The notes beneath the pieces were generated by a model, which had not been told where the DNA came from, made no database searches, and worked only from the letters and a program-made list of their open reading frames with translations. From Helicobacter sp. MIT 99-5507 (lineage in GTDB: Bacteria > Campylobacterota > Campylobacteria > Campylobacterales > Helicobacteraceae), in assembly GCF_003364295.1 (NCBI RefSeq), contig NZ_NXLO01000001.1, positions 62,001 through 126,000 of the forward strand: 64,000 nucleotides of DNA. Direction: 5' to 3'. This document shows, piece by piece, positions 2 to 53,825 of the stretch. How positions within the stretch are numbered: position 1 is the stretch's first letter; each line of letters opens with the position of its first letter. The position numbers and the translations under genes were made by a program.

Positions 2-409
2 ATTTGGTGGCTTATTATGAGCTATACATTCCTTTCACTAGATTATCAAAACGGAAGTTTTTGGATTCTATTAATTAATGCAATAATAACAATACTTGCA
101 TACAATAGTATAGGATTATTTATTTATTCTTTGATTGGAACGCATGTTAGGGCAATTAGTATCGCTGCTTTTTATGCTGCACCAAGCCTCGCATTTTTAG
201 GTATTACTTATCCTTTAAATAGTATGGATTTATTTCCAACTTTTTGGGGCTCAATACTTCCTATAATGAGATATATGCAAGTCTATATACAACAAGCAAA
301 TTATTCCATAGAGCCACTTTGTAGCTTAAGATTAATAATGCAGAATCTTCCATTTTTGTTATTTGGAATCTTAGGTGCAATGGTATATAAAAAGAAGAAT
401 CTATCATGA
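2..409 (+). CDS. ABC-2 type transporter permease, C-terminal part (5' cut by window edge)
   Basis: The reading frame is open to the first base of the window, so this is the 3' end of a longer gene; the first ATG, at base 17, is probably internal. The roughly 135 visible residues hold several hydrophobic segments and a GITYPLNSMD stretch resembling the last periplasmic loop of ABC-2 permeases of the YhhJ/YbhR type. The TGA stop overlaps the ATG of the next permease (ATGA), so two permeases are translationally coupled, as in HlyD–ABC–ABC drug or glycolipid exporters. Substrate unknown. Confidence 0.7.
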   Translation: MWWLIMSYTFLSLDYQNGSFWILLINAIITILAYNSIGLFIYSLIGTHVRAISIAAFYAAPSLAFLGITYPLNSMDLFPTFWGSILPIMRYMQVYIQQANYSIEPLCSLRLIMQNLPFLLFGILGAMVYKKKNLS

Positions 410-1545
410 TAAAGCTATTTGATACTATAAAATCAGAATTAAAGGTGATTCTAACGAGCTTTTCAATACTTACTATAATAATTGGTGGAAATATTATATA
501 TGCATTTTTTTATCCAAGTCCGTATCTAAATGATATTGTAGTAAAACAAAAAATTGCAGTAGTAGATGATGATAGGACAAATTTAAGTAGAGATTTTATA
601 TTTGCTGCAAATGCTTCACCAAAAATAAATATCACATATAATACCACGATGCAAGATGCAATGAATTTGATAACAAAACAAGAAATACATGGAATCTTAT
701 ACATCCCAAGCGGATTTGAAAAAGATTCTATTACTCTATCGGTGCCAAGTGTGTATTATATCGCGGATAATTCATATTTTTTCATTCATAGCACTATTAT
801 AGAAGGATTAAATAATGCTTCTAGTAAGCTTGAATTAGATATCAAACTCATGCAATCCTTATATGACAATCACATTAATATAGAAGGTAAAAAAATAATA
901 GATTGGCAATTTATACCATTATTTAATGAGAGTGTTGGATATTTAAATTATGTAATTGCAGCGATACTAATTTTTATACTTCATCAAACATTAATTATGT
1001 CATGTGGAATCTTATGTGGAATCCAAAATCAACAATTTTCTCAAGGTAAAAGAGATTATTTTTGTAAAGTAAGTCCATTTTTTTTAATCAATGCTAGAGT
1101 GATTGTATTTTGTATCATCTATGCACCTTTATTTTTGTTTTATTTCGGATTTATCTATGATTTATATAATATTACAACTCTTGCAGACTATTTGCAATTA
1201 ATTTTATTTGGTTTGACTTTTATATCTACAACAAGTGCATTTGGTATATTTCTTGGTAGTATTTTTAATAGAATGGAATATGTTCCACAAATTGCACTTG
1301 TGATGAGTATGCCATTATTATTTGCACTTGGTTTTGTGTGGCCTGTAGAGATGATACCACAATGGATTAAGTTTTTTATGTGGTTTGTGCCTATTACACC
1401 TAGTATTGATGGATTTTTGAAGCTAAATCAAATGGGTGCAGATTTTCATCTTTTGCAATTTGATTTTTATCATTTAATATTTTTAGGTGTTTTGTATATG
1501 TTTTTAGCTTATTTTATTATTCATTTTAGATTCCATAGGAATTGA
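406..1545 (+). CDS. ABC-2 type transporter permease
   Basis: A 379-residue protein with one N-terminal membrane segment (about residues 14-36), a periplasmic domain of about 140 residues and five or six membrane segments in the C-terminal half. This is the classic ABC-2 membrane (YhhJ/YbhR) layout. The motif FALGFVWPVEMIPQWI near residue 300 corresponds to the conserved C-terminal loop of the family and parallels the GITYPLNSMD stretch of the preceding permease. It overlaps that gene by four bases (ATGA) and is four bases from azlC. Probably one half of an efflux pump whose ATPase and adaptor lie upstream of the window. Confidence 0.8.
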   Translation: MIKLFDTIKSELKVILTSFSILTIIIGGNIIYAFFYPSPYLNDIVVKQKIAVVDDDRTNLSRDFIFAANASPKINITYNTTMQDAMNLITKQEIHGILYIPSGFEKDSITLSVPSVYYIADNSYFFIHSTIIEGLNNASSKLELDIKLMQSLYDNHINIEGKKIIDWQFIPLFNESVGYLNYVIAAILIFILHQTLIMSCGILCGIQNQQFSQGKRDYFCKVSPFFLINARVIVFCIIYAPLFLFYFGFIYDLYNITTLADYLQLILFGLTFISTTSAFGIFLGSIFNRMEYVPQIALVMSMPLLFALGFVWPVEMIPQWIKFFMWFVPITPSIDGFLKLNQMGADFHLLQFDFYHLIFLGVLYMFLAYFIIHFRFHRN

Positions 1546-1549
1546 GATT

Positions 1550-2245
1550 ATGATAGATTCTAAGACACTAAAAGATGCTTTTTTAAAAGATGTAGAAATT
1601 ATTATTGGATATATTTCTATGGGAATGATTTTTGGCATATTATTAAAAGCAAGTGGTTTTGGTGGATTGTGGGCTTTGTTTATTAGTGTATTTGTGTATT
1701 CAGGTGTTATGCAATTTTTAGCAATTAGCTTTTTTGGTGGCTCTTTTGGGTTATTAAATATTTTTATTACAACTTTGATGTTAAATTCTAGACAGAGTAT
1801 TTATACGCTAATAATGCTTCCAAAATATAAAAAGATGGGATTTAAAGGAATTTTAAATACATTTTGGCTTACAGATGAGACATTTGCAATAATACAAACA
1901 AAATCACCAAACAAAGATTCTAATCCAGATTTATTTGTATTTTTTATATCATTGTTTAATTATCTTGCATGGATTTTTGGTTGTGTTTTTGGGACATTTA
2001 TAAATGATATATTTAAATTTAACAAAGATGGATTGGAATTTATAATGCCTGCAATATTTATAGTGATATTTTTAGAGCAATACAAAAGTGCAAAAGAGCA
2101 TATTACAACCATTATAGGTATATTTGTAAGTATATTTTTCTTACTTACAATTGGTGAAAAATATTTTTTAATTGTATCAATTATTACTTGTATATTGATT
2201 TTTACAATTTTTAGAAAGAAATTAGAATCTAAAATGAAAGAATAA
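1550..2245 (+). CDS. azlC: AzlC family branched-chain amino acid exporter, large subunit
   Basis: A 231-residue polytopic membrane protein. The N-terminal half carries the AzlC signature: the stretch YISMGMIFGILLKASGFGG, then SGVMQFLAISFFGG near residue 55, and a LNSRQSIYTL block near residue 80. AzlC pairs with small AzlD proteins to export branched-chain amino acids or analogues. The next gene starts one base after this stop and encodes AzlD, which supports the call. It follows the ABC permeases by only four bases, so it may share their transcript. The real substrate cannot be read from sequence. Confidence 0.88.
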   Translation: MIDSKTLKDAFLKDVEIIIGYISMGMIFGILLKASGFGGLWALFISVFVYSGVMQFLAISFFGGSFGLLNIFITTLMLNSRQSIYTLIMLPKYKKMGFKGILNTFWLTDETFAIIQTKSPNKDSNPDLFVFFISLFNYLAWIFGCVFGTFINDIFKFNKDGLEFIMPAIFIVIFLEQYKSAKEHITTIIGIFVSIFFLLTIGEKYFLIVSIITCILIFTIFRKKLESKMKE

Positions 2246-2246
2246 A

Positions 2247-2561
2247 ATGGATATTTTGTTTATTATTTTAGTGATTGCAGTAGCAAATTTTATCACTAGA
2301 TTATTGCCATATTTTATTGTGCCAAAGGAGATTCCATCATTTATCAATTATATCTCAAATATATTGCCAAATGTAATTATTGCTATGCTTGTGGTGTATT
2401 GTCTAAAAGATACAAAATTTTTAGCTCCATTTTATGGATTAAAAGAGATTATAAGCATATTTGTAGTTGTTACACTTCATTTAAGCCTAAGAATATCAAT
2501 AGTTAGTATTTTAGGCGGAGTTATGTGCTATATGATTTTGGTGCAAAAATTTGGAATGTAA
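2247..2561 (+). CDS. azlD: AzlD family small subunit of branched-chain amino acid exporter
   Basis: A 104-residue protein with three or four membrane segments and the ANFITRLLPYFI motif near the N-terminus that is typical of AzlD. It is expected to form a two-component exporter with AzlC immediately upstream. Its last 11 bases overlap the TTG start of nadD, so translation of nadD may be coupled to it. Size and gene order match the family. Confidence 0.87.
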   Translation: MDILFIILVIAVANFITRLLPYFIVPKEIPSFINYISNILPNVIIAMLVVYCLKDTKFLAPFYGLKEIISIFVVVTLHLSLRISIVSILGGVMCYMILVQKFGM

Positions 2562-3072
2562 AATAGCAATTTTTGGTGGCTCATTTGACCCACCACATAA
2601 AGGGCATAAAGCCATAGTAGATGAATTATTAAAGCTAGATTTTTTAGATTTAATCATAATTTTGCCAGCATTTTTAAATCCATTTAAAAATAAGCCTCTT
2701 TTTTTGCCACAAAAAAGACTAGAATTGCTAAATGAAATAATAAAAAAAGATAAAAGGATTCTAATATCCAATTTTGAAATAAAGCAAAAAATCACTCATA
2801 GCATAGATTCTATCAAGTATTTCAAGGATTTTTATAAACCAGATTCTATATATTTTGTAATTGGAGCAGATATTTTGCAAGATTTGTATAAATGGCATAA
2901 AATAGATGAAATCCTAAATGAGGTAAATCTAATAATAGCAAGGCGAAATGATATAGATATAGAATCTAGTGAGTTTTACAAAAAAGATAAAACCATCATT
3001 CTTGATACAAACTATAATATCTCATCTACAATATTAAGAGAGCAATATTTTGCTAATTTTAAAGATTATTAG
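2551..3072 (+). CDS. nadD: Nicotinate-nucleotide adenylyltransferase
   Basis: NadD transfers AMP from ATP to nicotinate mononucleotide, giving deamido-NAD, a step common to de novo and salvage NAD synthesis. The 173-residue protein shows the nucleotidyltransferase motif FGGSFDPPHKGH (residues 8-19, with the HxGH pair at 16-19) and an ISSTILR motif near the C-terminus, both diagnostic. The start is TTG inside the end of azlD; no ATG precedes the motif in frame. Length is normal to slightly short. Followed after 42 bases by rsfS, an association common in bacteria. Confidence 0.95.
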   Translation: MECKIAIFGGSFDPPHKGHKAIVDELLKLDFLDLIIILPAFLNPFKNKPLFLPQKRLELLNEIIKKDKRILISNFEIKQKITHSIDSIKYFKDFYKPDSIYFVIGADILQDLYKWHKIDEILNEVNLIIARRNDIDIESSEFYKKDKTIILDTNYNISSTILREQYFANFKDY

Positions 3073-3114
3073 AATAGAATATAAGCTTTTAGATTCTACA
3101 TTTAAGAGGCATCA

Positions 3115-3453
3115 TTGAAAGAGAGATTAGATTTTATTATTGATTTATTAGATAGTAAAAAAGCTGAAAATATTACACTTATTGATTTAAAAGATAGTGG
3201 ATATATCACACAATATGTCATCATTGCTACGAGTATGGCAGATAAACATAGCTTTGCATTGCTAGATTATCTAAAAAGCGAGCTAAAGCCAAAGGGTGAA
3301 GTGTTTTATTGCACTGATGAGGAGAGTGGTGATTGGATTATTGCTGATTTAGGTGATATTATGGTGCATATTTTTACAGAAAATCATAGAAAGAAATTTA
3401 ATTTGGAAGAATTTTTATCAAACTACAAAAAGAATATGACTACAAAAAATTAG
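3115..3453 (+). CDS. rsfS: Ribosome silencing factor RsfS (DUF143)
   Basis: RsfS binds ribosomal protein uL14 and blocks joining of the subunits under nutrient limitation. The 112-residue protein carries the family blocks: KAENITLIDLKD, the YVIIATSMADKHS stretch, and EESGDWIIADLGDIMVHIF near the C-terminus. The start is TTG, preceded at a suitable distance by AAGAGG (3102-3107). Adjacent to nadD, its usual partner, and probably co-transcribed with it. Confidence 0.94.
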   Translation: MKERLDFIIDLLDSKKAENITLIDLKDSGYITQYVIIATSMADKHSFALLDYLKSELKPKGEVFYCTDEESGDWIIADLGDIMVHIFTENHRKKFNLEEFLSNYKKNMTTKN

Positions 3454-3541
3454 CTAGAATGATTATTGATACTAGCTATTAGATTGAATAATATATTATC
3501 CTAAAAGATATTTTTACTTAATTTAGTTTTTAAGGAATGCG

Positions 3542-4477
3542 ATGATGGTATTTGGACCAATTTTTTCAAGAAGATTTGGAATCTCACTTGGAGTTGATCT
3601 TTCACCACAAAAAAAGCAATGTAATTTTGACTGCCTATATTGTGAGCTAAAACCACCAAAAAGAGGAATGCCAAAAACAATTGCAAATTTTGATAAGGTT
3701 TTGCCACTAGAAAATCTACTAGAGAATGTAAAAGAAGCACTAAAAGTTCATAAAAATATTGATGTGCTTACGATTACTGCAAATGGTGAGCCTACCTTAT
3801 ATCCGCATCTAAAAGAATTTATCATACAGATAAAGCCATATATTCCAAAAAATGTAAAAAGCCTAATCCTTAGCAATGGAAGTCTTTTTGGGGATAAAAA
3901 ATTGCAAGATACGCTAAAAGAATTTGATATTGTAAAGTTTAGTTTAGATTCTATTTCTTCAAGTTTTAAAAAAATCGATAGACCGCATAAAAGCCTTACA
4001 ATAGAAGATATAAAAGATGGAATAAAAAGTTATGCAAAGATTAGAAAAAATACTCTTATTTGTGAGATTTTAGTAGTAGAAAATATCAATGATAATGATA
4101 ATGATATGATATTACTTGCTGATTTTTTAAGAGAAATTAAAGTTGATAGAATCGATTTAGGCACGATTGATAGACCGCCAGCTTATAATATCAAGGCTGT
4201 CAGTTTTGAGAGATTATTAGAATTAAGTAAAAATTTTGAAAGCAAAGATTCTAAAGATTTGTTTGTAAGCTTACCACAAAGAAAAAATACCAATATAGAT
4301 ATTTTGATAAATTTAAGTGAAAGTGATATACTAAATACATTGCAAAAGCGACCTATTGCGGTAAATGAAATAGAGAATCTATTTAATAAAAATAGTGTAG
4401 ATAGATTCCAAAAACTATTTAAAGATGGAGTTATTAAGATAAAAAATATGGGCTTAATTGATTTTTATACACTTTAA
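3542..4477 (+). CDS. Radical SAM protein (COG0731-like)
   Basis: A 311-residue radical S-adenosylmethionine enzyme. The cluster motif is CX3CX2C at residues 27, 31 and 34 (CNFDCLYC), followed by the TANGEPTLYP glycine-rich SAM-binding region near residue 80 and later RIDLGTIDRPP. The pattern belongs to the Fe-S oxidoreductases of COG0731, related to wyosine-type enzymes, whose bacterial substrates are unknown. The C-terminal 60 residues look like a small winged-helix domain (LNTLQKRPIAVNEIENLF). It stands alone between rsfS and the ankyrin gene. Confidence 0.85.
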   Translation: MMVFGPIFSRRFGISLGVDLSPQKKQCNFDCLYCELKPPKRGMPKTIANFDKVLPLENLLENVKEALKVHKNIDVLTITANGEPTLYPHLKEFIIQIKPYIPKNVKSLILSNGSLFGDKKLQDTLKEFDIVKFSLDSISSSFKKIDRPHKSLTIEDIKDGIKSYAKIRKNTLICEILVVENINDNDNDMILLADFLREIKVDRIDLGTIDRPPAYNIKAVSFERLLELSKNFESKDSKDLFVSLPQRKNTNIDILINLSESDILNTLQKRPIAVNEIENLFNKNSVDRFQKLFKDGVIKIKNMGLIDFYTL

Positions 4478-4518
4478 AAATATAATTTGCACTCTCATTT
4501 AAATAACAGAGGAAAAAG

Positions 4519-5187
4519 ATGGGTTTATTTGATAGATTCTTTCATAAACAAGAAAAAGAGGAAGTTGTTGAAGAAATAAAAAAATATGATGGTAATTTTT
4601 TTAATATAGCAAGAACAGGTAGCCTTAAAGATGTAAGAGAAGCACTAAGAGATGGTGCAGGTATTAATGATAAAAATGATCAGTGGTGCACTCCTTTGAT
4701 GTTTGCAGCAGAGGAAAATACAGACCCAGAAGTAATAAAAGAGCTAATAAAAGCTGGTGCAATTTTGGGAATGAAAACAAAAGGCGGAGCCACTCCACTA
4801 ATGGGTGCAGCACAAAAAAATAGCAATCCAGAAGTATTACAAGCCTTGATTGATGCGGGTGCAGATGTAAATATTGTAAATGATATAGGATTTACACCTT
4901 TAATATATGCAGCCATATTTAATCCAAACCCAGAATTTATAATAAGATTAGTAAAAGCTGGTGCTCGTGTAAATTATTCTAACAACATAGGCTATACAGC
5001 TTTTATATACGCTGCATTAAATAGTAAAAATATAATCATATTAAAAACATTGCTTGAACTTGGTGCAAATCCAAATCATAGAGATATGAACAATTTAAGA
5101 GCAATTGATCATTTAAGAAAAGAGACTGACTATCAAAATAATGAAATATATAAATTTTTATTAAGCTTAGAATCTGATTCTAAATAG
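4519..5187 (+). CDS. Ankyrin repeat protein
   Basis: A 222-residue protein without a signal peptide. After a charged N-terminus (GLFDRFFHKQEKEE) come about five ankyrin repeats from residue 35 on, each with recognisable cores such as CTPLMFAAEENTDPEVIKELIKAGA, shown here in shorter form as TPLMFAAEE, TPLMGAAQK, TPLIYAAIF and TAFIYAALN. Such proteins are protein-protein interaction scaffolds; in Campylobacterota some sit next to catalases, but no such neighbour is present. The RBS is GAGGAAAA just ahead of the ATG. Function unknown. Confidence 0.85.
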   Translation: MGLFDRFFHKQEKEEVVEEIKKYDGNFFNIARTGSLKDVREALRDGAGINDKNDQWCTPLMFAAEENTDPEVIKELIKAGAILGMKTKGGATPLMGAAQKNSNPEVLQALIDAGADVNIVNDIGFTPLIYAAIFNPNPEFIIRLVKAGARVNYSNNIGYTAFIYAALNSKNIIILKTLLELGANPNHRDMNNLRAIDHLRKETDYQNNEIYKFLLSLESDSK

Positions 5188-5196
5188 TAATAAATA

Positions 5197-5225
5197 TTGA
5201 CTTTAATATATATTTCTATTATAAT
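5197..5225 (+). promoter_or_regulatory. Sigma-70 type promoter of tRNA-Asn
   Basis: TTGACT (5197-5202) and TATAAT (5220-5225) are separated by 17 bases and end about 20 bases before the tRNA. This is one of only two near-consensus -35/-10 pairs noticed in the window. Confidence 0.75.
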
Positions 5226-5244
5226 CCCATCTCTAAAATTTTAT

Positions 5245-5319
5245 TCCGGATTAGCTCAGCGGTAGAGTAGGTGGCTGTTAACCACTTGGTCGTAGGTTCG
5301 AATCCTACATCCGGAGCCA
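5245..5319 (+). tRNA. tRNA-Asn (GTT)
   Basis: Full cloverleaf: acceptor TCCGGAT pairs with ATCCGGA, D-loop CAGCGGTAGAG, anticodon loop CTGTTAA with anticodon GTT, T-loop GGTTCGAATCC, encoded CCA end. Confidence 0.96.
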
Positions 5320-5385
5320 TCTCTTATTGTTATTAAATTACAGACTTTATGACCAAATTTGCTAACAGCATTCCCTCCATTTGAA

Positions 5386-5415
5386 AAACCTAGTTTTAAA
5401 GAGCTAGGTTTTTTT
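5386..5415 (+). terminator. Rho-independent terminator after tRNA-Asn
   Basis: AAACCTAG (5386-5393) pairs with CTAGGTTT (5404-5411) around a 10-base loop and runs into seven T residues (5409-5415). The 65 bases between the tRNA and this hairpin hold no recognisable gene. Confidence 0.8.
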
Positions 5416-5474
5416 ATATTAAACTTCATACTTTAAGTTATAATGACACATTTTTTACAAAGGATTTAATTTTT

Positions 5475-6500
5475 ATGAAAGATTTTATAGTAGCTATCGT
5501 AGGTGCAAGTGGTGCTGTCGGAGAAGAAATAATTACTCTATTAGAAAATGTAGATTTTGGTATTAAGGAATTAATTCCTCTTGCAAGTTCAAGAAGTGTA
5601 GGGAAAAGTATAACTTTTAGAGGAAAAAAAATACCTATTTTAGAAACTACTCATGATATATTTGCAAAGCTAAATATTGATATTGCATTTTTTTCTGCTG
5701 GTGGAAGCATAAGTAGTGAGTTTGCGCCAAGTGCTACAAAAGCTGGAACATTAGTCATTGATAATACTAGCTTTTTTAGAATGCAAGATAATGTACCTCT
5801 TATTGTCCCAGAAGTAAATCCAGATGATATTAGATTATGGAAAAATACAGGAATAATAGCAAATCCAAATTGCTCTACTATACAAATGGTGCAAGTCTTA
5901 GATCCATTGCATAAAAAGTTTGATATACAAAGAGTTGATGTTAGCACTTATCAAGCAGTTAGTGGTGCAGGAAAAAAAGGCATGGAATCTCTACTTACTC
6001 AAACAGCAAAAGAAATCAACAATAGCAATGATAAAGTGCTAGATTCTTTTACTCATAAAATCGCATTTAATCTAATACCTCATATTGATGTATTTTTAGA
6101 TAATGGATACACAAAAGAAGAAGTAAAAATGATAAAAGAAACTAGTAAGATAATGCATTCAAATTTTGCACTTAGTGCTACATGTGTGCGAGTGCCAATC
6201 TTGCGTAGTCATAGTGAATCAATTAGTATTAGATTTAATTCAAAAGTAAGTGCAAAAGAAGTAAGAGAAGTCTTAGAATCTGCAGAAAATGTAATAGTCA
6301 TAGATGATATAGCTAACAATAAATATCCAATGCCAATTATTGCTACTAATACAGATAATACCTATGTAGGAAGGATTAGAGAAGACTATTTTGATAAAAA
6401 TACTATCCATCTTTTTTGTGTTGCAGATCAAATTAGAGTAGGAGCAGCAACAAATGCTATTAGAATCGCACAAAAATGGGTAAAAATAAGAGAATCTTAA
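5475..6500 (+). CDS. asd: Aspartate-semialdehyde dehydrogenase
   Basis: Asd reduces aspartyl phosphate to aspartate semialdehyde, the branch point to lysine/diaminopimelate, threonine and methionine. The 341-residue protein has the NADP-binding GASGAVG near residue 10, SSRSVGK at 38-44, the active-site cysteine in NPNCST (Cys133), and a QAVSGAGKKG segment that follows it as in the bacterial family. Length is normal. RBS AAGGA lies 11 bases before the ATG. It appears to be a single-gene unit bounded by terminator-like hairpins. Confidence 0.96.
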   Translation: MKDFIVAIVGASGAVGEEIITLLENVDFGIKELIPLASSRSVGKSITFRGKKIPILETTHDIFAKLNIDIAFFSAGGSISSEFAPSATKAGTLVIDNTSFFRMQDNVPLIVPEVNPDDIRLWKNTGIIANPNCSTIQMVQVLDPLHKKFDIQRVDVSTYQAVSGAGKKGMESLLTQTAKEINNSNDKVLDSFTHKIAFNLIPHIDVFLDNGYTKEEVKMIKETSKIMHSNFALSATCVRVPILRSHSESISIRFNSKVSAKEVREVLESAENVIVIDDIANNKYPMPIIATNTDNTYVGRIREDYFDKNTIHLFCVADQIRVGAATNAIRIAQKWVKIRES

Positions 6501-44342: not shown

Positions 44343-45231
44343 ATGAAAACAAATTTATTTATCACTGGTGGAAGTGGATTTATCGGTAAGCATTTTATCG
44401 ATAAATTCTATCTAGATTATGATATAAAAGCTATAGCACGAGATTCTAGTGTAATTGATAAAAATAAGTGCAAAGTTTTTTATTATGATAGGGATATTAA
44501 TAAATTAAATAATTTTTTTATGAATGAAAATAGTGTTATGGGGGGGGGTATTACACCTAGCAACATTATATCTATCAAATCACAATATTTGTGATATAGA
44601 AAAGCTTATTGATAGTAATATCACTTTTGGTAGTGAAGTCTTAGAATCTGCCTGTAACAACAATATAAAATTTTTTATTAATATCCTTACTTTTTCAATA
44701 TTTGCAAATTCAACTACTTACAATCCACTTACATTTTATGATAGCACAAAGCAAGCATTTTATGATATTTTAGAACTTTATAAAAGTAATTTTAAAAATA
44801 CAAAATTTATTAATCTTTTACTTTATAACACTTATGGTGCTAATGATACAAGACCAAAAGTGCTAAATCTATGGCACAAGATAAGTAAGAGCGGTCAATG
44901 TCTAGAGATGAGCAAAGGTGAACAGCTAATTGATATAAGCCATATCGATGATGTTATAAATGCAATAAATATTGCTATTAAAAATATAGATTCTCTTGAT
45001 AGTGATATTATATATACTATAGAAAATACTCCGCGTTTAAGTTTGAGAGAATTAGCTAAAGTATTTGAAAATGCTACAAATACAAAATTAAATATAAAAT
45101 GGAATAAACCATATAGAGAAAATGAGATTTTTAATCCCATATCAAGTCTAGATTCTACAAAATTACAAAAGCTACCGCATTATATACCAAGTATTAATAT
45201 AAATGATGGCATTAAAAGCGTCTTTGGATAA
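44343..45231 (+). CDS. NAD-dependent epimerase/dehydratase, phase variable (out of frame)
   Basis: An SDR sugar-nucleotide epimerase/reductase gene split by a G9 tract. The first frame (44343-44594) has the Rossmann motif FITGGSGFIGKHF; the second carries VLHLATLYLSNHN, DSNITFGSEVL, the C-terminal RLSLRELAKVFENATN and GIKSVFG. Reading through with 8 or 11 G joins them into about 295 residues. The paralogue at 51478-52362 has LIGVIHLATLY at the same place without a tract, confirming the join. No YxxxK is obvious in either copy (ctYDSTKQAF here gives YxxxK-like YDSTK). OFF as sequenced. Confidence 0.85.
44540..44548 (+). repeat. G9 tract, OFF state
   Basis: Nine G; eight (or five, eleven) would restore the epimerase frame. 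Confidence 0.85.
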
Positions 45232-45419: not shown

Positions 45420-46796
45420 TTGATAAGTCTAAGAGATGAAATCTTGCAAAAAGTAAGAGATTATTACAATCTTTATCATAAAAAAAGTAAAGATTTTACT
45501 AAAGGTGATAGGATAAATTATGCAGGAAGAATTTATGATGAAAATGAAATCGTAAATTTAGTGGATAGCGCACTTGATTTTTGGCTTACAGCTAGTAAAT
45601 ATGCTAGAGAATTTGAAAATAAATTAGCTAAATATTTAGGTGTAAATTATGCACTTTTAGTAAATTCTGGTTCAAGTGCAAACTTGCTTGCATTCTCTAC
45701 TTTAACTTCTCCTTTACTAAAAGATAGAGCTATAAAAAGAGGAGATGAGATTATTACTCTTGCAGCTGGATTCCCAACCACTATATCACCTATTGTGCAA
45801 TTTGGTGCAATACCTGTATTTGTAGATATTACTTTAGAGAGTGCAAATATTGATACAACTATGATAAAACAAGCAATCTCTCCTAAAACAAAAGCAATTT
45901 TTATAGCACATACACTTGGGAATCCATTTGATTTAAAAGCAATAAAAGAGATTTGTGATAAATATAATCTTTGGCTTATAGAAGATAATTGTGATGCACT
46001 TGGTGCAAAATATGATGGTAAATTTACAGGAACTTTTGGTGATATTGGCACATCTAGTTTTTATCCAGCACATCATATCACAATGGGCGAGGGCGGTGCG
46101 ATTTATACAAATAATCCACTTTTAAAAAAGATTGCTTTAAGTATAAGAGATTGGGGTAGAGATTGTTATTGTGAAGGTGGAAAAGATAATACTTGTGGAG
46201 CGAGATTTTCTCAAATGCAAGGAAATCTTCCATTTGGCTATGATCACAAATATATCTATTCACATTTTGGATACAATCTAAAAGCTACAGAAATGCAAGC
46301 AAGTATTGGTGTTGCACAACTTGATAAGCTTGATTTTTTCATCCAAAAACGACAAGAAAATCATAAATATTTATATCAGAGTCTAAGTAAATTTAATGAT
46401 ATATTTATTTTGCCACAGGCTACACCTAATTCACAGCCAAGCTGGTTTGGATTTTTAATCACTCTAAAGGATGGTGTGAATTTTAGTAGAAATGAGATAG
46501 TTGAGTTTTTGGAATCTAAAAATATCCAAACTAGAAATCTTTTTGGTGGTAATATGCTGCTTCACCCTGCATTTGATAGCCTAAAAGAAGGAATTGATTA
46601 TAAAGTAGTAGGGGATTTAAAAAATACTAATAAAATTATGAAAGATAGTTTTTGGGTTGGCGTATATCCTGGAATCTCAAATATAGAAATAGAATATATT
46701 AGAGATGTAATAGATGATTTTATGGGGGGGGGGAATAAGCAAAATCTAAATTTAGCTACTTTCTTTAATCCATCTCTTACAAGGCTTGTAGCATGA
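45420..46796 (+). CDS. rfbH: RfbH-type CDP-4-keto-6-deoxyglucose 3-dehydrase (E1), with tract-extended C-terminus
   Basis: E1 is a PMP- and [2Fe-2S]-dependent DegT-family enzyme that removes the C3 hydroxyl to make 3,6-dideoxyhexoses. The usual Lys is His in FYPAHHITMGEGGA, as in E1. The four cysteines fit the E1 iron-sulfur pattern C-X57-C-X1-C-X7-C exactly (EDNCDALG ... RDCYCEGGKDNTC). Start is TTG behind AAAAGGGG. After residue 435 a G10 tract adds a 23-residue tail ending at an ATGA shared with the next gene; with other tract lengths the protein stops just after the tract. Confidence 0.92.
   Translation: MISLRDEILQKVRDYYNLYHKKSKDFTKGDRINYAGRIYDENEIVNLVDSALDFWLTASKYAREFENKLAKYLGVNYALLVNSGSSANLLAFSTLTSPLLKDRAIKRGDEIITLAAGFPTTISPIVQFGAIPVFVDITLESANIDTTMIKQAISPKTKAIFIAHTLGNPFDLKAIKEICDKYNLWLIEDNCDALGAKYDGKFTGTFGDIGTSSFYPAHHITMGEGGAIYTNNPLLKKIALSIRDWGRDCYCEGGKDNTCGARFSQMQGNLPFGYDHKYIYSHFGYNLKATEMQASIGVAQLDKLDFFIQKRQENHKYLYQSLSKFNDIFILPQATPNSQPSWFGFLITLKDGVNFSRNEIVEFLESKNIQTRNLFGGNMLLHPAFDSLKEGIDYKVVGDLKNTNKIMKDSFWVGVYPGISNIEIEYIRDVIDDFMGGGNKQNLNLATFFNPSLTRLVA
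46724..46733 (+). repeat. G10 tract at the 3' end of rfbH
   Basis: Ten G encode Gly codons after Met435. Nine G give a stop after five further codons (ATAAGCAAAATCTAA); eight or eleven give GAATAA directly. Confidence 0.85.
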
Positions 46797-47459
46797 TACA
46801 AGCCATATTTCAAACAATCATAAATAAATTAAAATGGAAGCAAAAATTTAATTCTTTCTTAAAACAATATAGACTTAAAAACTCACATAATTTTACAACT
46901 CCTGTAAATATTTTTAATCTAGATAATGTAGTTGTTGGCAAAGGAAGTTATGGTCCATTGCAAGTTTTAGATTATGGAAATATTGATGCCAAAGTAAAAA
47001 TTGGTAATTTTTGTTCTATTGCAAATGGTGTGATATTTTTATCGGGGGGGGGGGCATAGCATGAATTGCTTTTCAACATATCCATTTTATGCTTATTACA
47101 CCGATAAAATTGAGAAAAATACAACAAAAGGCGAGACTATCATTGGAGATGACTGCTGGATAGGGCTAAATGCTATTATATTATCTGGCAGCAAAATAGG
47201 CAAAGGCTGTGTGATTGGTGCAGGAAGTGTCGTCCGTGGTGAGTTTGAACCATATAGTGTAATTATTGGCAATCCTGCGATACAAGTAAAAAAGAGATTT
47301 AGTAATGAAATAATTGAGATTCTAGAATCAATTGATTTTGATACTTTAGATAGTGATAAAATCTTAGAGCATTTGCATAGATTTTATACTCCCCTTGATA
47401 AGAATCTCGCATTAGAAATTAAATATTTGCTTAAAAAAGAGGGGGCTTACAATGAATAA
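46793..47459 (+). CDS. Hexapeptide-repeat acetyltransferase, phase variable (out of frame)
   Basis: A left-handed beta-helix (xenobiotic/CatB-like) acetyltransferase interrupted by G11. The first frame (46793-47059) reads [11 protein letters not shown] and [18 protein letters not shown]; the second continues [17 protein letters not shown], then [33 protein letters not shown] (core [13 protein letters not shown]). Ten G would give the family sequence [17 protein letters not shown] of a protein of about 222 residues. It would O- or N-acetylate a sugar in the glycan. Its ATG overlaps the rfbH stop; its end overlaps the methyltransferase start by eight bases. Confidence 0.88.
47044..47054 (+). 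repeat. G11 tract, OFF state
   Basis: Eleven G interrupt the acetyltransferase; ten would restore the frame. The longest tract in the window. Confidence 0.87.
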
Positions 47460-48732
47460 TAAATGTAAAAATTGTGGCTCTATCTTAAAGTTAAAAATAG
47501 CAGATTTATCATTTGCTCCTCCATCAAATTCATTTCTAAATAAAGATGATTTACAAAATGCAGAATCTTATTATCCGCTAAAAGTATATTTATGTCAAAA
47601 TTGCTTTTTAGCACAAGTTGATGAATATAAAAATGTAAAAGAAATTTTTTCAAAAAATTATGTATATTTTAGTTCATATTCTAGCACTTGGGTTGCTCAT
47701 GCAAAGTCGTATGCAGAGATGATTATCAAAAAACTAGATTTAAATAAATCATCTCAAGTCATAGAAATTGCAGCAAATGATGGATATTTATTGCAGTTTT
47801 TCAAAGGGATTCCAAGCATTGGAATTGAGCCTACTTCTAGCACTGCAAAAGTTGCAAAATCCCGTGGTATAGAAATAATTGAGAAATTTTTTAATAAAGC
47901 CCTAGCTTCTAATCTACCAAAAGCAGATTTAATAATTGGTAATAATGTCTTAGCACATGTGCCAAATATAAGAGATTTTGTAGCAGGTGTGAGAATCGCT
48001 CTTAAAAAAGATGGTGTAGCAAATTTTGAATTTCCACATATTCTTAATCTAATAAAATATAATCAATTTGATTCTATATATCATGAGCATTTTTATTATT
48101 ATAGTTTGCATTCTGTAATTGATTTATTTAAAAGAGAGAATCTTTATATTTATGATGTTGATATTTTAAAGACACATGGCGGAAGTTTGAGGATTTATGC
48201 TAGTAAAAATAAAAAGCAAATAAGTAAAAATATCATAAATATCTTAGCATTAGAGAAAAAATACAATCTTGATAATAAAGATGGTTATTTATCTTTGGAA
48301 TCAAATATGCAAAAAATAAAGATTGATTTTTTATCTTTATTGTTAAAATTAAAAAAGAATAATAAAAAAGTTATTGCATATGGAGCTGCAGCAAAGGGAA
48401 ATACTTTGCTTAATTATTGTGGTATCAAAGATGATTTGATAGCTTATGCAATAGACAATTCACCCCACAAGCAGAATCTTTTCTTGCCCGGAAGTCATAT
48501 AGAAGTAAAAAATAAAGATTTTATAAAAGAGCAGATTCCAGATTATATTTGGATTCCAGCATGGAATATCAAAGATGAGATTATCAAAGAAGTAGAATCT
48601 ATATTTAAGGCAATTTTAAGCAACCCTAAAAATAGTAACATGGGGGGGGGTAGTATGCAGATTTATCATCACTACTCCAAAAGTAAAAATTATCACCAAA
48701 CATATCACCATATCCAAAGGGGAGCAATATGA
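47452..48732 (+). CDS. C-methyltransferase for sugar nucleotides (TylC3/EryBIII-like), C-terminus set by a G tract
   Basis: A 426-residue SAM-dependent sugar C-methyltransferase: N-terminal zinc-type cysteines (CKNCG and CQNC), then [14 protein letters not shown] site [26 protein letters not shown] and a C-terminal domain with [17 protein letters not shown]. After residue 397 a G9 tract leads to a 29-residue tail that ends at the ATGA of the next gene. With eight G the frame reads [12 protein letters not shown], which matches the family's usual GG-(R/K)FVxxIPxxxxI ending, so the normal protein is probably the 8-G version. It would methylate the deoxy sugar made through RfbH. Confidence 0.87.
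48642..48650 (+). repeat. G9 tract at the 3' end of the C-methyltransferase
   Basis: Nine G give the tail that ends at ATGA; eight restore a family-like C-terminus and run 74 bases into rfbC; ten give an immediate TAG. Confidence 0.85.
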
Positions 48733-51481: not shown

Positions 51482-52362
51482 CTTTTTATAATTTTTGTTA
51501 TACCATCTTTAAAAGTGAAGCATTCTTGCCAATTTGGCAGATCTTCACCACCTTCAAATGGGATGAAGTTTTCTCTTTGCATATATGGTTTTGCACCCCA
51601 TAATATATTTAATTTCTTGCCTATTATTTCTTCAAATATATTTGCAAGCTCACGCAATGTTTTTCTTTCTTTTGTATGAAGTGCAAATATTTTATTTTTT
51701 GCTAGAGTTTTGTATTTTGAGTTTAATAAATCAATTAGCACAATAAATGCATTTATTACATCATCAATATATATTATGTCAATTAGTTGCTCTCCTTTGC
51801 TCATTTCTAGTGTCTTGCCACTATTTGCAACTCTAAGCCATAGATTAAATATTTTTTCTCTAGTGTCATTTGGTCCATATGTATCATTTAGATAAATAGT
51901 GCTAAAGGTGATATTTGTCGTGTTTGCATAGAAATTAATAATATTATTAAAAGCACTTTTAGATGCTGCGTATAGATTCAAAGGATTATTTGGCATATTT
52001 TTATAAAATTGCCAAAATGTGCCAACATTTATAAACCAACCATCAAATTTTAATAATGATAGAATCTCGCATATCTCACTTCCAAAAGTAATATTAGAAT
52101 CTATAATACACTTGATGTCATCAATTTTGTGTGTTTTTATATATAAAGTTGCTAGATGTATTACGCCTATTAAATCTTTATCTTTTAAATATTCTAGTAA
52201 GCTTAGGGCATTTTTGTATCTATATATTTTACAAAAAGATTCTATTCTACTAGAATCCGAATTTTCTCTTATAATTGCTATGATGTGATATGATTTGCTT
52301 AGTGTTTTTATTAGATTTGAGCCTATAAACCCACTGCCGCCTGTAATTAGAATAGTTTTCAA
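51478..52362 (-). CDS. NAD-dependent epimerase/dehydratase (tract-free paralogue)
   Basis: A 294-residue SDR enzyme with ILITGGSGFIGSNLI, LIGVIHLATLYIKTHK, DSNITFGSEIC, YAASKSAFNN (catalytic YxxxK) and RKTLRELANIFEEIIG. It is a clear paralogue of the switched-off gene at 44343-45231, but the site of that gene's tract is GGCGTA here, so it cannot slip. It overlaps rfbC upstream by four bases (ATGA). Likely a 4-reductase or epimerase in deoxy-sugar synthesis. Confidence 0.88.
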   Translation of the reverse strand: MKTILITGGSGFIGSNLIKTLSKSYHIIAIIRENSDSSRIESFCKIYRYKNALSLLEYLKDKDLIGVIHLATLYIKTHKIDDIKCIIDSNITFGSEICEILSLLKFDGWFINVGTFWQFYKNMPNNPLNLYAASKSAFNNIINFYANTTNITFSTIYLNDTYGPNDTREKIFNLWLRVANSGKTLEMSKGEQLIDIIYIDDVINAFIVLIDLLNSKYKTLAKNKIFALHTKERKTLRELANIFEEIIGKKLNILWGAKPYMQRENFIPFEGGEDLPNWQECFTFKDGITKIIKS

Positions 52363-52910
52363 AAATATCCCTCTATTCTATCACTAAAAGATAAATCACG
52401 ATTAGAGATAATAAATTTATCAATATTATATTTCTTTGCTATTTCCTCCCATCTAAATCCAAAGCTATCATACTTCACCCCGCAATCATGTTCTTTGCTG
52501 TATTCACTTGTTTGCATATAATGCACTTTTGTATTATCCTCAAGGCTTAAAAATCCATGTGCAAATCCTGCTGGTATATATAGGCATTGAAGATTAATAG
52601 AATCTAATTGAATATAAAAATTTTGCTTATATGTTTTGGAATTTTGCCTCAAGTCAAGCACTACATCAATAATACTTCCATTTGATACATATACTAATTT
52701 TGCATGTTCTTTTGGAGGAATCTGAAAGTGCATACCACGAATAACGCCTTTTTGTGATACAGAATAAAATGATTCAAAAAATTCAGCATTAAGTTTATAA
52801 GTCTCAAAAATATTTTTATTGAATTGTTTTACAAATTGTCCTCTTAAATCTTTATGTGGAGTGATATTTATGATGTATAGATCTTTAAAAGTAGTATTTA
52901 TTATCTCCAT
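52359..52910 (-). CDS. rfbC: RfbC-like sugar-nucleotide 3,5-epimerase, second copy
   Basis: A 183-residue epimerase with HKDLRGQFVKQF, VIRGMHFQIPPKEHAKLVYV (core RGMHFQ), VLDLRQNSKTYK and YIPAGFAHGFLSLEDN. It differs clearly from the copy at 48729, implying two substrates or two branches. Start codon abuts the stop of the epimerase upstream (TAAATG) in the present tract state, and its stop overlaps the next epimerase. Confidence 0.9.
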   Translation of the reverse strand: MEIINTTFKDLYIINITPHKDLRGQFVKQFNKNIFETYKLNAEFFESFYSVSQKGVIRGMHFQIPPKEHAKLVYVSNGSIIDVVLDLRQNSKTYKQNFYIQLDSINLQCLYIPAGFAHGFLSLEDNTKVHYMQTSEYSKEHDCGVKYDSFGFRWEEIAKKYNIDKFIISNRDLSFSDRIEGYF

Positions 52911-53825
52911 TTACGCAACCTTCTTATGAAGATAATAAATATATGTTATAAAATCATTTTTTAGTGCGACCCCCCCCCTATTTAGGTGGTAGGCTATCGT
53001 TTTTGTAATACCATCTTTATTGCTATATTTTGGTATATAACCAAAACTCTGTAGCAGTGATATATCAGTTTTTATATTCATATTTTCTAAAGGATTATAT
53101 GGCTTTTCTCCAAATAATAATTTTGAATTTGTATTTGAGTATTGATTAAATATATCTAATGTAAGTTCTATAAAATCCTTTAGTCTAGTTTGTTTTCCAC
53201 TTCCTAGCTCACAACGTGTGTATTTTTTAAAAGAATCTATATTATTAATGATGATTTTAAATGCATTTATTACATCATCAATATATATAAAATCTCGTAG
53301 TTGCTCACCTTTGCTTAGTTTTATATTATTATTTAAAATCATTTGTTCTATTAGATAATGTATAAATTTATTATTATCATCAAATGGTCCATACATATGC
53401 TCAATACAAACATCAATAATATTTATATTATCAAAATATCTAAAATAATTACTAAGATGATTTTTACTCATGCAATATGGATTTGTCATGGGATTTTGAA
53501 GAGTATTTATATTGATGAAAGTTTTGATATTTTTATCATTGGCAAATTCCAAAACCTGAATACCAAATAATAGATTAGAATCTATTATTTCACTTAGTTT
53601 ATTGCCATTTCTGCCATAATTTGTAGCAGTATGAATAATAAAATCAATATTTTTTTCTATATGATTTAAATCTTTAGAATCTACAAGCTCTATATCATAG
53701 TCTTTTAGTCTCCAAAGATTACTATCTTTTCTTATTACTCCAATGATTTTATTAGATTTATAAAATGCTTTTACCAAATGGCTACCTAAGAATCCACTTG
53801 CTCCAGTAATTAAAATAGTTTTCAT
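52911..53825 (-). CDS. NAD-dependent epimerase/dehydratase with tract-extended C-terminus
   Basis: A 304-residue SDR protein: ILITGASGFLGSHLVKAF, IHTATNYGRNGNKLSEI, PYCMSKNHLSNYF (YxxxK) and LSKGEQLRDFIYIDDVINAF core GEQLRDFIYIDDV. The family part ends near YHLNR (residue 283). A G9 tract (coding strand) then adds 21 residues and the stop lies directly before the ATG of rfbC. With eight or ten G the protein ends two to six codons after the tract. Function: sugar-nucleotide modification in the adjacent cluster. Confidence 0.87.
   Translation of the reverse strand: MKTILITGASGFLGSHLVKAFYKSNKIIGVIRKDSNLWRLKDYDIELVDSKDLNHIEKNIDFIIHTATNYGRNGNKLSEIIDSNLLFGIQVLEFANDKNIKTFININTLQNPMTNPYCMSKNHLSNYFRYFDNINIIDVCIEHMYGPFDDNNKFIHYLIEQMILNNNIKLSKGEQLRDFIYIDDVINAFKIIINNIDSFKKYTRCELGSGKQTRLKDFIELTLDIFNQYSNTNSKLLFGEKPYNPLENMNIKTDISLLQSFGYIPKYSNKDGITKTIAYHLNRGGVALKNDFITYIYYLHKKVA
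52970..52978 (-). repeat. C9 tract (G9 on coding strand) at the 3' end of an epimerase gene
   Basis: Nine G on the minus strand encode Arg-Gly-Gly-Val near the C-terminus. Eight give GGSHstop, ten give GGGRTKKstop. Confidence 0.83.

Follow-up and report, generated by a model that had tools for sequence, protein, structure and literature searches.

A poly-G tract at the 3′ end of an epimerase gene, a likely phase-variable coupling switch of the downstream rfbC gene in Helicobacter sp. MIT 99-5507

Poly-G tracts at the 3′ ends of genes have been described in Helicobacter canadensis. Snyder et al. 2010 (PMC2823697) listed eight genes carrying such tracts, the epimerase gene rfbB among them, termed the arrangement 'C-terminal phase variation' and proposed that the C-terminal sequence of the protein is switched. 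A study in Neisseria gonorrhoeae (PMC5320596) added fusions with the downstream gene. Catalogues of phase-variable genes credit each tract to the gene that contains it. We analysed a 64,000-nucleotide stretch of the genome of Helicobacter sp. MIT 99-5507, hereafter the window, in which a gene of this type (gene A) is followed directly by an rfbC gene (gene B). The features of the locus are as follows.

52911..53825, minus strand: gene A, encoding a NAD-dependent sugar epimerase/dehydratase of 304 aa (present frame)
52970..52978, minus strand: G9 tract (C9 on the plus strand) in the 3′ end of gene A
52911..52969, minus strand: runway tail, open in the present frame, with TAA at 52911-52913
52961..52963, minus strand: stop codon used with G8, read from the sequence
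52954..52956, minus strand: stop codon used with G10, read from the sequence
52919..52925, minus strand: AAGAAGG, Shine-Dalgarno-like site of rfbC within the tail, read from the sequence
52359..52910, minus strand: gene B, rfbC/rmlC-like, dTDP-4-dehydrorhamnose 3,5-epimerase family (PF00908), the proposed switched gene

The geometry of the locus is established directly. With G9, the TAA of gene A (52911-52913) abuts the ATG of rfbC (52910-52908) to give TAAATG, a stop/start contact as in translational coupling. This frame continues for 19 codons beyond the last codon of the tract, or 21 when the Gly-Gly codons of the tract are included. With G8, the frame stops 9 nt after the tract, 50 nt short of rfbC; with G10, it stops 16 nt after the tract, 43 nt short. 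The long epimerase frame is regained with G6 or G12. The tract lengths specify three alternative C-termini, and the layout of C-terminal phase variation is thereby also met. Gene B matched PF00908 with an E-value of 1.8e-49 and TIGR01221 with 140 bits, below the cut-off of 155.75 for that family. A preliminary sequence-only reading had described the epimerase frames, their stops and the TAAATG contact, and this description held in full. Its statement that the tract lies at the C-terminal end of the enzyme family also held: the PF01370 and PF16363 matches of gene A end by residue 275, and in 20 tract-free homologues from other phyla the C-terminus falls 2-17 residues past reference residue 277, near the tract. 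Past the same residue, the window protein continues for 27 residues and its relative in Helicobacter sp. 16-1353 for 81. The epimerase tail is outside the enzyme family, whose C-terminus falls approximately at the tract.

The length of the epimerase tract is far above background. In the sampled sequence, G/C runs were bimodal in length: runs of 3, 4, 5 and 6 numbered 803, 163, 14 and 0, respectively, and those of 7, 8, 9 and 10 numbered 2, 2, 29 and 12. The 1.53-Mb genome of MIT 99-5507 contains 98 tracts of at least 8. By this length criterion, the epimerase tract is a contingency tract and not a chance run. Variation of its length in MIT 99-5507 is inferred; in the H. canadensis orthologue, the tract varies from G11 to G17 in population reads (PMC2823697).

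Other tracts of the genome were also recorded. A G9 tract at 44540-44548 (plus strand) of the window lies near the 5′ end of an epimerase paralogue and leads to an early stop at its present length; one G less would give an open frame of ∼680 nt, an ordinary 5′ switch. A G11 tract at 47044-47054 (plus strand) divides a hexapeptide acetyltransferase into ORFs 46793-47059 and 47061-47459, which one G less would unite. Many 5′ tracts in this genome directly precede CAGCAGCAA or similar. Finally, a cluster at C1:400627-419652 has 14 tracts in ∼19 kb, many of them 3′-terminal, and it is possible that several consecutive genes switch separately there.

Given this arrangement, we propose that the tract is a slipped-strand phase-variable coupling switch, located in gene A and controlling gene B. 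We consider this reading likely, with the reservation that the effect on expression is inferred and no expression data are at hand. In the proposed mechanism, enzyme A is complete before the tract, and every tract length would yield a nearly unchanged enzyme. The tract length would instead set the position at which ribosomes leaving gene A stop. In the connecting frame, ribosomes would traverse a throw-away open tail containing the ribosome-binding site of gene B, stop on the start codon of B (TAAATG, TAATG or ATGA) and could restart on B. In the other two frames, ribosomes would terminate shortly past the tract, leaving 50 and 43 nt to B at this locus, and coupling would be lost. An enzyme that is nearly unchanged at every length would make a switch on A poorly placed, which favours coupling to B. 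The dependence of B on upstream translation, and reinitiation in preference to relieved polarity, are both inferred.

The window contains two further junctions of this type.

46724..46733, plus strand: G10 at the 3′ end of rfbH (45420-46796); the following ORF starts at 46793, overlapping the tail stop (ATGA)
48642..48650, plus strand: G9 at the 3′ end of a methyltransferase gene (47452-48732); an rfbC paralogue starts at 48729, overlapping the tail stop (ATGA)

As at the epimerase locus, the recognizable protein families end close to these tracts: the RfbH profile covers residues 3-436 of 458, and the PF08484 match of the methyltransferase stops ∼11 residues ahead of the tract. The sequence-only reading had claimed recurrence in an unrelated gene pair. 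This held for the junction at 46724 (RfbH followed by the acetyltransferase) and only in part for that at 48642, where the downstream ORF is again an rfbC paralogue (PF00908). In these genomes, ∼30% of tract-free same-strand pairs have a stop within −8..+1 of the next start. Because ordinary pairs overlap in this way so often, two cases in one window are insufficient evidence.

We therefore rely on a survey of 3′-tract junctions in five Helicobacteraceae genomes: that of MIT 99-5507 (G000); G001, a congener which we take to be Helicobacter sp. 16-1353; G003, which we take to be an uncultured Helicobacteraceae MAG; G071; and G078, which we take to be H. rodentium ATCC 700285, of a genus other than that of MIT 99-5507. 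From the agreement of its tract lengths and frames with the published table (PMC2823697), we infer that G071 is H. canadensis, of the same other genus as G078. All tracts of G000 and G003 were read, as were most of those of G001; 35 of the 142 tracts of G001 and 16 of the 54 of G078 were left out. A 3′-tract junction required an upstream frame of at least 100 codons to the tract, a next same-strand gene no more than 300 nt away, and no frame continuing more than 200 nt beyond the start of that gene. A junction was scored as connecting if the stop of one frame ended at −1..+8 of the next start. Gene starts were taken from a simple caller based on codon usage and Shine-Dalgarno sequences; it is blind to upstream stops, and some starts may be wrong. 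Two controls were used: dinucleotide shuffles of the spacer (1000 rounds, last 20 nt retained), and points at equal distances before starts in tract-free gene pairs.

According to this survey, the layout recurs. A connecting frame was present in 12 of the 21 3′-tract junctions of G000 (shuffle mean 4.2, maximum 9) and in 32 of 57 over the five genomes (shuffle mean 9.6, maximum 17 in 1000). Exact contact occurred in 56% of 3′-tract junctions of the five genomes versus 35% of ordinary pairs (p = 7e-4). The enrichment that the sequence-only reading had proposed as a check was thus found. Its suggestion that one frame always reaches the next start was too strong: beyond the 56% with exact contact, the proportion with a frame within 17 nt of the next start is about 75%, leaving approximately a quarter without any. 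At this looser 17-nt criterion, the 3′-tract class was indistinguishable from ordinary gene pairs (p = 0.40). The tails thus behave as real gene ends although they lie beyond the end of the family. At present, 16 of the 32 connecting junctions are in the connecting phase, 8 have one G too many and 8 one G too few. The enrichment contrasts were not corrected for paralogous junctions, and two borderline entries are internal tracts, followed by conserved sequence.

The off-frame stops of these junctions lie a median of 13 nt past the tract (22.5 nt for ordinary coding sequence; p = 3e-6). In 56 of 62 cases, at least 30 nt separate the stop from the next start. Tracts at 5′ and internal positions likewise have early off-frame stops (median 15 nt). 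Early stopping is therefore a general property of tracts and is not specific to the 3′ class.

The published H. canadensis genes were compared in the same manner. In five of the eight (HCAN_0165, 0641, 0643, 0653 and 0914), one frame ends no more than 1 nt from the next start. HCAN_0165 (rfbB) was matched to the orthologue of the window epimerase by its tract length and frames. At the HCAN_0665 junction, the TTG called as the start is doubtful, and the next ATG lies 7 nt after the stop. Separately, the tract at C1:939878 of G071, which matches flaG (HCAN_0914), and that at C5:92221 of G078, at the end of a similar-sized gene, both connect; the contact is TAATG in G071 and TAGATG in G078, and the tails are ∼16 and ∼57 codons long, respectively.

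To the extent that recurrence argues for selection, as the sequence-only reading had held, the claim is supported, but by comparison between species, which lay beyond the data of that reading. The epimerase-end tract precedes rfbC at an equivalent position in five species, as G9, G9, G14 and G11 in the four others; the lengths over the five are 9, 9, 9, 14 and 11, and the tails 19, 24, 70, 18 and 18 residues. In G003, the epimerase tract is now at a non-connecting length, and the connecting frame is intact. Between orthologous junctions, identity of the upstream bodies is 54-79% and extends to within a few residues of the tract; most of the downstream genes can also be recognized as orthologues. 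By contrast, the tails are mostly unrelated in sequence and unequal in length (19/24/70 residues for epimerase-rfbC, 20/61 for rfbH, and 25/83 and 31/41 for others). The window epimerase tail had no detectable similarity to the orthologue tails of G003 and G001 (z of −0.4 and −0.3). Tails were alike in two closer pairs only: G071/G078 and one G000/G003 junction. For a tract inside a protein, used as a control, the sequence after the tract was conserved (z = 27.8), and the method is therefore able to see conservation. Each listed orthologous junction has an open frame from the tract to the next start, and tails remain open for up to 84 codons despite their divergence. The comparison thus demonstrates that tract position is conserved and that a connecting frame stays open even though the tail sequence is not retained. 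We infer that this combination is best explained by selection on the position at which ribosomes stop.

Two other accounts of the tails were rejected. The tail is not a conserved C-terminal domain, as orthologue tails are mostly unalignable, and tract plus tail is not a dispersed repeat, as the tails within the MIT 99-5507 genome have no common sequence. Two genes of G001 (L072, minus strand, 711 and 2380) share near-identical sequence over ∼20 nt after the tract, GGGGGGGGGTRGCACAAAAATATAAAATA, as if one had been copied from the other.

The layout extends beyond the surveyed genomes. In further genera of the family, epimerase homologues found by homology search have contacts of ATGA (G096), TAATG (G054) and TAGTG (G062), and a stop at +8 (G046). 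In a second family of the order (f11), which we take to be probably Campylobacteraceae, 11 of 17 junctions connect under the same rules, including chains of ∼350-codon genes. The second-family sample was picked for its many tracts and had no shuffle test of its own, and one match, in G212 (746694), has a doubtful next start. Because the layout recurs across relatives of Helicobacter and Campylobacter, 3′ tracts probably switch the downstream gene and not the host gene, the effect on expression again being inferred.

Several observations bear on how, or whether, gene B depends on translation of gene A. RNA structure hiding the downstream start or ribosome-binding site was not detected, there being no excess pairing over shuffles at 43 junctions. 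Dependence would therefore rest on reinitiation or polarity. Masking by structure is not required in all coupled pairs. The Shine-Dalgarno-like site of rfbC itself may allow uncoupled translation, a possibility that counts against coupling. Moreover, in H. pylori tlpB-hp0102, translation of the downstream gene is independent of upstream translation (PMC8295292), which is a warning against assuming coupling.

Of the alternatives, we rank second a switch on gene B at the level of transcription, although we consider it unlikely. In this reading, an early stop exposes a C-rich, G-poor untranslated tail to Rho, which ends the transcript ahead of gene B, whereas translation in the connecting frame would protect the tail. 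Rho is present, and for C. jejuni it has been suggested that contingency genes with an early stop undergo Rho-dependent termination (PMC3025981). A C-rich, G-poor composition characterizes the tails of G000 (C 0.18 and G 0.10, versus 0.11 and 0.16 in coding 3′ ends; p = 1e-7) and of G001 (0.21 and 0.09; p = 2e-9), and in both the bias is present at all three codon positions. However, G071 shows the bias only weakly and G078 not at all, and the epimerase-rfbC tail itself is without it (7 C, 7 G). Many of the gaps (median 56 nt) are short for Rho loading, and stops falling exactly on the start codon are left unexplained.

Two further readings appear very unlikely. The published H. canadensis reading is phase variation of the C-terminus of protein A, the position of the next gene being incidental. 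The last residues of A do change with tract length, and this interpretation was published for eight genes (PMC2823697). It predicts a conserved alternative C-terminal sequence, which was not met among the orthologues compared: their tails are wholly different (z near 0) while the bodies are 54-79% identical, and no C-terminal sequence is kept. Nor does it account for the 56% of junctions at which the long frame ends exactly on the next start. The remaining reading is ordinary operon packing: overlapping stops and starts are frequent, and the tract would simply happen to occupy the final codons of A. In its favour, ∼30% of tract-free pairs overlap, and the 3′-tract class cannot be told from ordinary pairs at 17 nt. 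Against it, exact contact is enriched (56% versus 35%, p = 7e-4), the position of the tract is conserved between species, and the tails, which lie beyond the family end, have diverged yet are open for up to 84 codons.

A bolder form of the coupling hypothesis is that these junctions represent a recurrent, at least order-wide class of switch, in which a hypermutable tract at the end of gene A turns coupling to gene B on and off through a runway ORF, constrained in frame and free in sequence, and that at many junctions in surface-glycan clusters the wrong gene is annotated as phase variable. Taken jointly, we lean towards these claims, by a narrow margin. If they are true, the on/off calls in many surface-glycan clusters of Helicobacter and Campylobacter sit on the wrong gene, and genes without a tract of their own become phase variable. 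They would also provide a function for 3′ tracts, which have been presented as C-terminal switches but so far have no tested role.

The proposal that 3′ tracts switch the downstream gene by coupling was not found in the open-licence literature searched, and its novelty is thus unproven. Phase variation and coupling are each known; what would be new is phase variation acting through coupling, a functional step that is inferred. The locus shares with C-terminal phase variation (PMC2823697, PMC5320596) a poly-G tract at the 3′ end of a gene. The authors of those studies proposed C-terminal switching or fusion with the downstream gene, not downstream control, and a long frame ending on the next start codon was unreported. 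With translational phase variation at 5′ or internal tracts in Campylobacter, Helicobacter and Neisseria, it has in common a slipped-strand change of frame and early off-frame stops. Those tracts switch the gene that holds them, whereas here the tract-holding gene is essentially complete. The G repeat of H. pylori tlpB-hp0102 and its regulator RepG (PMC8295292) also combine a G repeat with a co-transcribed LPS gene; unlike the 3′ tract described here, that repeat is in the 5′ leader and acts gradually via an sRNA. Finally, stop/start translational coupling (TAATG, ATGA) likewise brings terminating ribosomes to the next start, with a Shine-Dalgarno-like site inside the upstream frame. Such coupling is normally fixed, whereas here the start is reached at one tract length in three.
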